Below, in pieces: positions 8,692 to 13,714 of a stretch of 64,000 bases of DNA; positions within the stretch are counted from its first letter, which is position 1, and every line of letters starts with the position of its first letter. Origin of the DNA: an uncultured Fibrobacter sp. (GTDB lineage Bacteria > Fibrobacterota > Fibrobacteria > Fibrobacterales > Fibrobacteraceae); the NCBI RefSeq assembly GCF_947166265.1, contig NZ_CAMVDO010000002.1:1-64000 (forward strand). Reading direction: 5' to 3'. The translations under genes and the position numbers were made by a program. The notes under the pieces were generated by a model that searched no databases, had not been told where the DNA came from, and worked only from the letters and a program-made list of their open reading frames with translations.

Positions 8692-9780
8692 ATGTATAGG
8701 GCAGCAAAGTCATTTTGGAAAAAACAAGATACGCTGGAACGCAAGATGTTCTGGTCTTTCTTGCTCGTGGTTACCGTAACCGCGGCTTCTTCTGCAGCCT
8801 TTACCGTATTCGAAGGTCTCGGGATCGAAGCATCCCTCTGCAGTATCGGAACGGCTCTCATCTGCGCCATCGTCGCCATTATCGCCGTAAAGACATCGCT
8901 CTACAACCAGTGCTACCTAGTGATGTGCTGTATTTTGAGCTGTTTCTTGACCCCGATACTCTTCCTGTTCTGCGGCGGCATCACATGCGGTATGACCCTT
9001 TACTGCCTGGCATCCATCATCTTGATATCGTTTGCCTCGCGCGGAAGGCTCAAGACTCTCGCCTTCATCATTTCCATGATCGTCCAGATCGCAACGATCG
9101 CGGCTACATGGATTTACCCCGACATGGTGATTGTCACTCTGGACAGGGATGCCTCGTACATCGACTTTCTGTCGTCGCACATCATGGTGGGTCTTGCCAT
9201 TTTCTCTATCGGTTCGCTTTCTGTCAGGGCCTATTCCCAGGAACGCGAAAAGACGGCGAAGCTCCTTGCCAAGCTGGATTTTCTCTCGATGCACGATTCG
9301 TTGACGGAGCTGTACAACCGGCGTTACCTGCTGAACTACCTTGAAAATTTCGTGTGGATGCGTAGAGGCGCCTTCTACCTTGCCATGCTCGACATCGACA
9401 ATTTTAAACAAATTAACCTCAACTACGGACACGATTTCGGTGACGAAGTCATTTGCACCGTGGGCAAGGCGCTGCAGAAGTACGAAGACGAAATCGCAGG
9501 CGAATGCACCGCACGCTATGGCTGCGAAAAGTTCATTTACGTCATCAGCGCGGGTTCCGAAGTAGAGGCTTTCGCCAAGGTCGAGAACTTCCGCAAGACT
9601 GTCCGGCAGATTACCTTCGAAAAGCACCCGCAGGTATCCCTTACCATTAGCGGCGGGTTCGTTTCCTGCAACAGCCGTTTCTTTAACGACGTAAAGCAGA
9701 TGCTTGCAAAAGTAGACGAGCTTCTCACTCACGCAAAGCAACAAGGGAAAAACCAAATCCGCAACATGGCGGATAACTAG
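8692..9780 (+). CDS. Membrane protein with degenerate GGDEF domain
   Basis: The 362-residue protein has five or six membrane segments (about 20-180), then a GGDEF domain starting at DSLTELYNRRYLL (202-214). The metal and base contacts MLDIDNFKQINLNYGHDFGDEV (232-253) look normal, but the signature loop reads RYGCEKF (275-281) instead of RYGGDEF/RYGGEEF. The second Gly is Cys and the fourth position is Lys, so diguanylate cyclase activity is doubtful. It may act as a GTP or nucleotide sensor or a partner protein, which is inference. It is divergent from the DivIVA gene; the neighbouring operon carries an intact HD-GYP phosphodiesterase. Confidence 0.85.
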   Translation: MYRAAKSFWKKQDTLERKMFWSFLLVVTVTAASSAAFTVFEGLGIEASLCSIGTALICAIVAIIAVKTSLYNQCYLVMCCILSCFLTPILFLFCGGITCGMTLYCLASIILISFASRGRLKTLAFIISMIVQIATIAATWIYPDMVIVTLDRDASYIDFLSSHIMVGLAIFSIGSLSVRAYSQEREKTAKLLAKLDFLSMHDSLTELYNRRYLLNYLENFVWMRRGAFYLAMLDIDNFKQINLNYGHDFGDEVICTVGKALQKYEDEIAGECTARYGCEKFIYVISAGSEVEAFAKVENFRKTVRQITFEKHPQVSLTISGGFVSCNSRFFNDVKQMLAKVDELLTHAKQQGKNQIRNMADN

Positions 9781-10932: not shown

Positions 10933-13386
10933 ATGGGTTTCAATTTTAGGGGACTCGCATTCAAGCAGTCCATGATGATTCTAGTGGCGTTCACCGTCGT
11001 GTTCGGCCTTATTTTCGGCATCATGAGCTACCAGACCCAAAATATGCTCAACAAGATGACGATCGAAAACGGTGAAGAATCCAGCCGCGCGAACGTGAAC
11101 TACATCGACAAGCTCTTCAATGCAGGCAAGCTCGTCGGTGACGATGTCGCAGCCACCCTCGGCAAGCGCAAGATGACAAAAGCGGAACTGGACGAATTCC
11201 TGTTTCAGTCTCTCACGAACGCCCGCAACCTCGTTCCCCAAATCGTGGCAGTCGTACTCGCCTACGAACCCGGCATGGGCCCAGAAACACCCAAGGGCGA
11301 ATTCATGCGACTCGCCCGCTTTACCGACAACGAAATCAAGCTGATTACTGGCGCCAACTATCAGGACAAGGAATGGTACTATTCTACCAGGGACGGCAAG
11401 ACCAGTCGCTGGCAGGAACCTTTCATTGGCGAATTCGTTCCCGAACCGATAGCCGTCTACACAGTCCCCATTTTCCGCACAAACGAAAAGGGCGAAGAAG
11501 TCCTTGCAGGTGTCCTTGCCGTAGACATGTCCATCGACTTCCTTAAAGAAACCATTACCGAAATTCCCATTTCAAACTCGGGATACGCCATCATCACCTC
11601 GGCTAAGAATGTGGCCGTCGCCTACCCCAAGAGCATCGCCCAGGGAAAGCGCAACCGAGAAATCACCGTCAAGGAAATTCGCGGAAAAAGTACCATCGAC
11701 TTTGATAGACAGAACCGCGACAGCAGCGGACTTTTCCTAGGCACCATCGCCGGTGGCGAAGAATCTGCCGTTTATTATACCACCATCAAGGCCAACAACT
11801 GGACCTTCATGGTCGCGTGGCCCATCCAGAAATATCTGGAAGACCAGAGAGGCATGCGCAAGCTTTTCCTGGTGCTCGCGTTCGCCGGCTACGGTGGTAT
11901 GCTCGTCATCATCTTGCTGATTTCTTTCCGAGTCGCAAAGCCACTCAAGGAGCTTGCCAAGGCAGCACGTAAACTGGGACTCGGAAACTTCAACGTTACC
12001 ATTCCGCAAATCACCGGACACGACGAGGTTTCCGAATTTGCAGCCGCCTTCTCGAATATGCTGACCGAACTCAAGGACCATATCGAGAAACAGAAGGACA
12101 TGAAGCGCATCGAGCGCGAACTCGATCTCGCCCGCAACATTCAACATTCCATGCTCCCCAGCAGCGAACACGAAGAAAATTCCGACGACGACCGTCACGA
12201 ACTTTCACCGTTCCTGCTTCCGGCCAAGGAAGTCGGTGGTGACTTCTACGACTTCTTCAAGATCGACAACGACCATCTTTGCGTCGTGATCGGCGATGTG
12301 TCCGGAAAGGGCGTCGCCGCGGCACTTTTCATGATGGTAGCCCGAATCATTCTGCGCACCACGACCAAGAACCTGAAGTCCATTGTCGATGCGTTCAACA
12401 AGACGAACTTCGCCCTTGCAAAGCGCAACAAACTGAGCATGTTCGTCACCATCTGGGCGGGCATCATCGACTTGCGCACAGGACACATCGAATTCGCCTC
12501 GGCAGGCCATAACCCGCCCGCCGTTCGCCACAAGGACGGCACCGTCGAATTCATACCGAGCAAGTCGGGCATTGTCATGGCCGCCATGGAAGATACCATC
12601 TACAAGTTGCAGACCTTCGACCTCAAGACAGGCGACACCCTGTTCCTTTACACCGACGGCGTCACCGAAGCGACCAACCGCAACAACGTCCTGTTCGGCG
12701 ACAACAGACTTCTCGAAATTCTTAGACAGGGCGGCGAAAAGACCCCTGCCGAAACATGCACCCTTGTCAAAAAAGAAATCGACAACTTTGTACAGGACGT
12801 TCCGCAATTCGACGACATCACTATGCTCACCGTCAAGTTCAACGGAAGCGATGAACCCGTCTGGGAGCGTTACGAAAAGACGATCGATGTCAGCGGCAAT
12901 AACAAGGGTGAGCTGAAGACTTTTGTACAAGACATTCTTACACCAATGGATGGAGCAAAGAAAATGCAAATGCAAGACGCCTGGGACCGCTACGAAAAAA
13001 TCGTAGACGTCATCCCGGAAAACCAGGATATTCTAACCGCATTCGTCGAGGGAATCCTTGCCCCCATGGAAGGTTCCATGAAGTCGCAGATGCAAATCAA
13101 CATCGCCATCGATGAAATCTACAGCAACATCGTCAAGTTCTCGGGAGCGACCAAGGTAACCCTGATTGTAGAAATCCGCAAAGCAACGCTTACCGCAAGG
13201 CTCACCTTTATCGACGACGGCAAGCCCTACGACCCGATCATGCAGGCAGACCCCGACGTGACGCTCCCCGCCGAAGACCGCGAAATCGGAGGACTCGGAA
13301 TCTTTATCGTGAAGAAAACGATGGATAGCGTCTGCTACCGTCGAAATGGCGACAAAAACGAACTCGCAATCACCAAGACCCTTTAA
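10933..13386 (+). CDS. Sensor PP2C phosphatase fused to an anti-sigma-type kinase domain
   Basis: The 817-residue membrane protein has an N-terminal helix (about 15-35), a Cache-like extracytoplasmic sensor (about 45-300), a second helix (about 308-335) and HAMP. A coiled linker leads to a SpoIIE/RsbU-type PP2C domain (about 420-635; VGGDFYDFFK, GDVSGKGVAAALFMM, YTDGVTEATN, DDITMLTV). The C-terminus is a GHKL kinase of the anti-sigma type (about 680-817; N-box IDEIYSNIVKFSG, FIDDGKPYDP, GGLGIFIVKKTMD). Phosphatase and kinase for one STAS substrate are thus in one chain, and the STAS gene follows 31 bp downstream. A 40-residue tandem duplication (12856-13095) lies at the junction of the two domains. 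AAGGTG precedes the ATG. Confidence 0.9.
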   Translation: MGFNFRGLAFKQSMMILVAFTVVFGLIFGIMSYQTQNMLNKMTIENGEESSRANVNYIDKLFNAGKLVGDDVAATLGKRKMTKAELDEFLFQSLTNARNLVPQIVAVVLAYEPGMGPETPKGEFMRLARFTDNEIKLITGANYQDKEWYYSTRDGKTSRWQEPFIGEFVPEPIAVYTVPIFRTNEKGEEVLAGVLAVDMSIDFLKETITEIPISNSGYAIITSAKNVAVAYPKSIAQGKRNREITVKEIRGKSTIDFDRQNRDSSGLFLGTIAGGEESAVYYTTIKANNWTFMVAWPIQKYLEDQRGMRKLFLVLAFAGYGGMLVIILLISFRVAKPLKELAKAARKLGLGNFNVTIPQITGHDEVSEFAAAFSNMLTELKDHIEKQKDMKRIERELDLARNIQHSMLPSSEHEENSDDDRHELSPFLLPAKEVGGDFYDFFKIDNDHLCVVIGDVSGKGVAAALFMMVARIILRTTTKNLKSIVDAFNKTNFALAKRNKLSMFVTIWAGIIDLRTGHIEFASAGHNPPAVRHKDGTVEFIPSKSGIVMAAMEDTIYKLQTFDLKTGDTLFLYTDGVTEATNRNNVLFGDNRLLEILRQGGEKTPAETCTLVKKEIDNFVQDVPQFDDITMLTVKFNGSDEPVWERYEKTIDVSGNNKGELKTFVQDILTPMDGAKKMQMQDAWDRYEKIVDVIPENQDILTAFVEGILAPMEGSMKSQMQINIAIDEIYSNIVKFSGATKVTLIVEIRKATLTARLTFIDDGKPYDPIMQADPDVTLPAEDREIGGLGIFIVKKTMDSVCYRRNGDKNELAITKTL
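12856..13095 (+). repeat. 120-bp in-frame tandem duplication inside the phosphatase/kinase gene
   Basis: Two copies offset by exactly 120 bp (40 codons) read VWERYEKTIDVSGNNKGEL...MQMQ and AWDRYEKIVDVIPENQDIL...SQMQ. Matching landmarks are TGG at 12862 and 12982, TAC at 12871 and 12991, and CAA at 12973 and 13093. Only the second copy leads into the kinase N-box; the first looks like a vestigial start of the same domain. Confidence 0.85.
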
Positions 13387-13417: not shown

Positions 13418-13714
13418 ATGCAGATTAACAAAATCACAGAAAACGACAAGTTGACGGTTGCCCTCGAAGGCCGCCTGGATACCCTGACTGCCCCGCAACT
13501 TGACGCCGAGATTCAAGGCAAGCTCGACGGAGTCAAGTCGCTCGTGTTCGACTTCAAGAAGCTCGAATACATTTCTTCTGCAGGCCTCCGCATTTTGCTC
13601 ATGGCCCAGAAGGTGATGAACAAGCAGGGCACCATGGTCGTGAAGAACGCCAGCTCCGAGATCAAGGAAATCTTCGAAGTCACCGGATTCTGCGACATCC
13701 TGACGGTCGAATAA
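13418..13714 (+). CDS. STAS domain anti-sigma factor antagonist
   Basis: A 98-residue STAS protein: MQINKITENDKLTVALEGRLDTLTAPQLD, then LVFDFKKLEYISSAGLRILLMAQK, whose YISSAGLR contains the conserved phosphorylatable Ser of SpoIIAA/RsbV-like proteins. AGAGGA sits 8 bp before the ATG at 13418, which I prefer over a longer frame overlapping the upstream gene. Expected role: partner-switch substrate phosphorylated by the kinase domain and dephosphorylated by the PP2C domain of the preceding protein. The downstream target, a sigma factor or other protein, is not in the window. Confidence 0.92.
   Translation: MQINKITENDKLTVALEGRLDTLTAPQLDAEIQGKLDGVKSLVFDFKKLEYISSAGLRILLMAQKVMNKQGTMVVKNASSEIKEIFEVTGFCDILTVE

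Follow-up and report, generated by a model that had tools for sequence, protein, structure and literature searches.

The window analysed here, a stretch of 64,000 nucleotides from an uncultured Fibrobacter sp. (contig NZ_CAMVDO010000002.1), carries at 10933..13386 a gene for an 817-residue protein, defined by its open reading frame and Pfam domains, in which a sensor, a phosphatase and a kinase are joined in one chain. This gene and all features described below lie on the forward strand. The Pfam order is a dCache-like region, HAMP, PP2C/SpoIIE, a segment that we call copy 1, and a HATPase_c_2 kinase. The putative periplasmic sensor (PF02743, 11347..11805, aa 139-291) is a dCache_1-like match below the Pfam cut-off, scoring 37.3 bits against a curated value of 45, and it is followed by the HAMP domain (PF00672, 11923..12075, aa 331-381). 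The phosphatase domain (PF07228, 12268..12840, aa 446-636, E 3.5e-50) reaches 171.1 bits against a curated cut-off of 25, as expected of a SpoIIE/RsbU-type PP2C, and the RsbW/SpoIIAB-like kinase domain (PF13581, 12982..13383, aa 684-817, E 6.7e-14) reaches 52.4 bits against 27.4. The motifs AIDEIYSN, FIDDGKPYDP and GGLGIF, which we take to be the N box and two glycine boxes of the kinase, are intact in the window protein and retained in its orthologues, in an alignment that omitted some near-identical rows of the set of 30 double-copy orthologues described below.

Immediately downstream, at 13418..13714, is a gene for a STAS protein resembling anti-sigma-factor antagonists (TIGR00377, above cut-off; PF01740), a separate reading frame that is not fused into the sensor-phosphatase-kinase chain. 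A STAS gene lies at most 50 nt downstream in 26 of the 30 full double-copy orthologues, and from this gene neighbourhood the STAS protein is the likely candidate substrate of the kinase and phosphatase. The four orthologues that lack an adjoining STAS gene (L026-L029) form one subclade in the tree, and each of their genomes encodes a STAS relative elsewhere. Given that several single-copy fusions also have a STAS gene as neighbour, the duplication is not tied to gaining the substrate. Upstream, at 8692-9780, is a gene for a GGDEF-like protein, presumably with GCEKF as its signature motif, which looks degenerate.

The repeat at the phosphatase-kinase junction

The first-pass annotation of this DNA had reported a 40-residue tandem duplication at 12856-13095, its copies 120 bp apart, and these coordinates, equivalent to aa 642-721 at the phosphatase-kinase junction, proved right. 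The best ungapped 40-residue self-match in the whole protein is found at a lag of 40, starting at aa 642, with a BLOSUM62 score of 106, as against 26 for the best self-match at any other lag. Framed on their common tryptophan, copy 1 (12862..12981, aa 644-683) and copy 2 (12982..13101, aa 684-723) are identical at 20 of 40 residues without gaps and score 102; 100,000 shuffles gave a mean of -34 (sd 13) and a maximum of 29, confirming that the tandem repeat is real. At the DNA level the copies share 73 of 120 positions and only 16 of 40 third codon positions, which indicates that the duplication is old, and a nucleotide repeat finder did not report the pair, the repeat being visible at the protein level only. 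Of the residues singled out earlier as kept in both copies, RYEK is indeed shared, but MQMQ is present in copy 1 only, copy 2 reading SQMQ. Neither Pfam nor PHROGs held a family for copy 1 alone, 40 residues being short for such searches.

A profile built from the kinase tail and related sequences matches RsbW (6m36_A, E 6.8e-10) and SpoIIAB, and residues 48-182 of an AlphaFold2 model of the tail align with SpoIIAB (1th8_A) with a VIA-align Z of 16.9 and an rmsd of 2.5 over 124 aligned residues. Since model residue 49 is the first residue of copy 2, and the solved SpoIIAB and RsbW chains align from there on, copy 2 represents the usual beginning of an RsbW/SpoIIAB-like kinase domain, its own first strand and helix (beta1-alpha1). 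Copy 1 is an additional, in-frame beta1-alpha1 between phosphatase and kinase. The earlier placement of the repeat between the two domains thus holds for copy 1, the kinase domain itself opening with the 40 residues of copy 2. Relative to the phosphatase, copy 1 begins at the place of the single beta1-alpha1 of a single-copy fusion (KFNGSDEPV-W in the window, QFIGSKDNE-W in L137).

Modelling of the region, which had been proposed as a check, yielded a copy 1 helix of low confidence and no strand. In two single-chain AlphaFold2 models, built with 61 and 63 sequences, the blocks of copy 1 have mean pLDDT values of 37-72, and in both the helix spans aa 658-669. The low confidence may stem from how little variation is available for copy 1, about 30 close sequences, and the predicted structure would equally fit a helical spacer. 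The helix is amphipathic, with a moment of 0.47 versus 0.23 for shuffled sequences (sd 0.11). Among the matches listed by the fold search, none made copy 1 part of a known fold; for one SiaB chain, 6kko_B, the alignment started at model residue 34, with an rmsd of 6.2.

Distribution, origin and constraint

When 167 Fibrobacterota genomes were searched with both copies, 31, each from the same genus as the window, had the two together, and six others matched on copy 2 only. Our orthologue set comprises one reading frame from each of 30 genomes; a further genome, G032, in which the contig ends inside the gene, was excluded and is counted only among the 31. Both copies are kept in all 30 full orthologues and loss was seen in none, which, by the reasoning of the first-pass annotation that conservation of both copies would imply function, argues that copy 1 is functional. 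The contrary case that it had named, orthologues with one copy, does not occur within the clade, single-copy relatives being found only outside it.

We built a tree from 41 fusions, 23 of the 30 double-copy orthologues and 18 single-copy proteins, with copy 1 left out of the alignment. On it a single branch with support 100/99 separates all 23 double-copy proteins from the rest, so that one change suffices to account for them; since the root was placed at the midpoint, a single gain would be the natural reading of the tree and not proof. Among 35 single-copy relatives, 31 are nearer to copy 2, four are ties and none is nearer to copy 1, and the consensus sequences of the two copies share 21 of 40 residues, as against at most 15 of 40 for copy 1 and any of the 35. 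That the copies are closest to each other, with the relatives nearer to copy 2, points to a duplication within this gene, in which copy 2 would occupy the old position. Gene conversion between the copies was not seen, their DNA identity being 0.612 within species and 0.606 between species, and indels within copy 1 are in frame across the 30 orthologues.

Given that dS was saturated (over 1, and not computable for copy 2), we used pN/pS as the measure of constraint. Over the 30 orthologues 17 of the 40 columns of copy 1 are invariant, with a pN/pS of 0.174; the corresponding values are 30 of 40 and 0.044 for copy 2, 63 of 94 and 0.091 for the rest of the kinase, and 88 of 191 and 0.200 for the phosphatase. 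Copy 1 is under purifying selection, with a constraint about equal to that of the phosphatase domain and weaker than that of the kinase. What is conserved in it follows its twin: 18 of the 23 positions conserved in at least 29 of 30 orthologues carry the copy 2 consensus residue, compared with 3 of the 17 others (Fisher p 3e-4). The strand WERYEK with V10 and the helix face L18, F21, V22, I25, L26, P28 and M29 are retained, WERYEKT being invariant in 30 of 30, and five conserved positions are unlike copy 2 (T7, K19, T27, D30 and A40). Position 19 is Lys662, invariant in all 30 copy 1 sequences, as Thr702 is in copy 2. The loop that joins beta1 to alpha1 in copy 1 is free to change, at 6.9 times the kinase rate.

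As a reference for rates we used the single beta1-alpha1 of two groups of free-standing kinases, cut at 0.75 and 0.72 identity, with one of 30 (L170) falling in neither. Relative to the rest of the kinase the element changes at rates of 1.43 and 1.62 in these groups, as against 2.61 for copy 1, with overlapping intervals, and 0.64 for copy 2. There is a hint, and only a hint, that copy 2 slowed to an unusual degree once the duplication had occurred, since its bootstrap interval (0.23-1.24) overlaps those of the free-standing groups (0.46-3.39 and 0.90-2.73); in eight matched genomes its rate was 0.93 versus 1.41, and a coarser table of pairs gave a stronger-looking slowing, but from pairs that are not independent.

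Relatives of the gene vary in composition. L141 (G071:C3) has a STAS domain (PF01740, aa 702-796) joined to its phosphatase in place of the kinase, and the alignment indicates the same for L142 (G095:C18). Three single-copy fusions, L143, L146 and L147 (G087, G081 and G036), have lost N-box and glycine-box residues (e.g. VQIFDN, DILGQF) and are for this reason probably pseudokinases; the kinase domain of L143 scores under the Pfam cut-off. At L144:2330-2375 (G045) the phosphatase and kinase are encoded by separate genes, in frame and three bases apart (TAA CAA ATG), and the fusion L140 (G043) retains the old start region of the kinase, SNMQNFRK, which together suggest that fusion may have come about by loss of a stop codon, or the split form by gain of one. 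The single-copy fusion L054:1011-2713 (G027) directly follows an HD_4 gene and a RelA_SpoT gene, and a double-copy gene of another genome (L050:1525-2700) also adjoins a RelA_SpoT gene; a link of these fusions to alarmone metabolism is possible.

Possible roles of the additional element

According to the excerpted text of PMC7340262, Bacillus subtilis RsbW dimerises directly through beta1 and alpha1: the beta1 strands of the two subunits together make a cross beta-sheet, and alpha1 lies against the alpha1 and beta1 of the partner. What was duplicated in Fibrobacter is the equivalent of this element, and we tentatively favour, at somewhat less than an even chance, the proposal that copy 1 mimics or extends an RsbW-type dimer interface and so tunes kinase pairing in the fused protein. 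Through an in-frame tandem duplication of some 120 bp, in an ancestral member of the genus, the PP2C-kinase gained a second beta1-alpha1, which might pack on the beta1-alpha1 surface that the partner kinase would otherwise use, whether in cis or between the chains of the sensor dimer. The chains are probably already dimerised through their HAMP and phosphatase parts, to judge from the excerpted text of PMC12143880. If the kinase dimerises as RsbW does, copy 1 could then act as an internal mimic of that element, one that determines the pairing of the two tethered kinase domains whenever the phosphatase is driven by the sensor, and altered pairing would shift the balance of kinase and phosphatase activity on the neighbouring STAS protein. 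In an alternative geometry copy 1 would add a second pairing surface across chains. A stricter version, which we regard as rather unlikely, is a toggle, controlled by the dimer of sensor and phosphatase parts, between a cis 'pseudo-dimer', in which copies 1 and 2 of one chain pair, and the true dimer with the other chain. Such a toggle would constitute an intramolecular dimer-interface switch in a GHKL-type serine kinase, of which there was none among the literature matches listed, and to our knowledge none has been described.

The serious rival to an interface mimic is that copy 1 is a helical spacer, lengthening and stiffening the connection between phosphatase and kinase, with its helix packed either against its twin or against the phosphatase, and with a resemblance to the kinase that is historical. 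The strandless helix of both low-confidence models and the nearly unconstrained loop are what such a part would show, and coiled-coil linkers carry signals in RsbU-type phosphatases, though there, as far as the excerpted text of PMC12143880 goes, they are placed before the phosphatase. A plain spacer, however, has no need of an invariant WERYEKT strand, or of conserved positions that track copy 2. It is because of the low-confidence, strandless models and the faster change of copy 1 that we hold the interface proposal only tentatively and take the spacer, doubtful as we find it, as a real possibility. A further proposal, that copy 1 is a second docking face for the STAS protein or a sigma factor, draws on Lys662 and its invariant counterpart Thr702. 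The position 19 column aligns with Arg23 of RsbW and Arg20 of SpoIIAB (from a profile alignment, with residues counted by hand), and in the excerpted text of PMC7340262 Arg23, the residue aligned to Lys662, contacts RsbV through a hydrogen bond to Asp23. We consider a docking role improbable nonetheless, as it would hang on one residue, and 4 of 30 orthologues do without an adjoining STAS gene, though they have STAS genes elsewhere.

Two further readings came from the first-pass annotation, which had suggested that the first copy is a relic of a second kinase domain or a pseudo-substrate-like segment. That copy 1 is a piece of a kinase domain is correct. It ends in QMQDA right before copy 2, and free-standing relatives start with MQN or MQD, as if two tandem kinase units had once been present and most of the first had been lost; recombination of two kinase genes would give the identical product. 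Copy 1 is, however, constrained and hence not a decaying relic, a longer remnant of a second kinase was found at that place in no searched genome, and a single 120-bp tandem duplication is simpler, so we judge the loss of a former kinase unit very improbable. The pseudo-substrate idea, in which copy 1 would occupy the kinase active site, has in its favour that copy 1 directly precedes the kinase domain, but what copy 1 resembles is the kinase's own N-terminus, as its match to the copy 2 consensus attests, and not a STAS phosphorylation site; by eye it has neither a likeness to STAS nor the Ser/Thr of a STAS-like motif, and we give the idea hardly any credence.

Copy 1 bears on the question of how a fused phosphatase-kinase chain avoids running both opposed activities at once. 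Situated exactly between the two enzymes, conserved and easily deleted, it is a concrete candidate for the part that couples them. A natural control is provided by the single-copy proteins of the same genus, one of which shares a genome (G027) with a double-copy gene.

Comparison with known systems

From copy 2 onward the kinase shares its fold and profile match with RsbW and SpoIIAB (6m36, 1th8, 1l0o), from which the Fibrobacter kinase differs in being fused to a sensor phosphatase and in having a second beta1-alpha1 in front. In SypE-SypA of Vibrio fischeri a kinase and a phosphatase in one chain likewise act on a STAS protein, but SypE has another domain order and a receiver domain. The nearest proteins on the tree are the single-copy PP2C-HATPase fusions of Fibrobacter (L137, L138), which are of like architecture and often have a downstream STAS gene but have one beta1-alpha1 only. 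A published Fibrobacter partner switch was absent from the best 10 of 36 and the best 10 of 89 literature matches.

The combination of PP2C and RsbW-type kinase in one chain is already known from Rv1364c of Mycobacterium tuberculosis (3ke6), a PAS-PP2C-kinase-STAS protein that the Fibrobacter protein matches in sequence (3ke6_A, E 2.1e-14) and in which, in the excerpted text of PMC9138534, the PP2C is followed by the RsbW-type kinase. The Fibrobacter system differs from it in that the sensor is membrane-bound (Cache-HAMP) and STAS is encoded by a separate gene, and the conserved partial duplication of a dimer element is, as far as these searches go, new.
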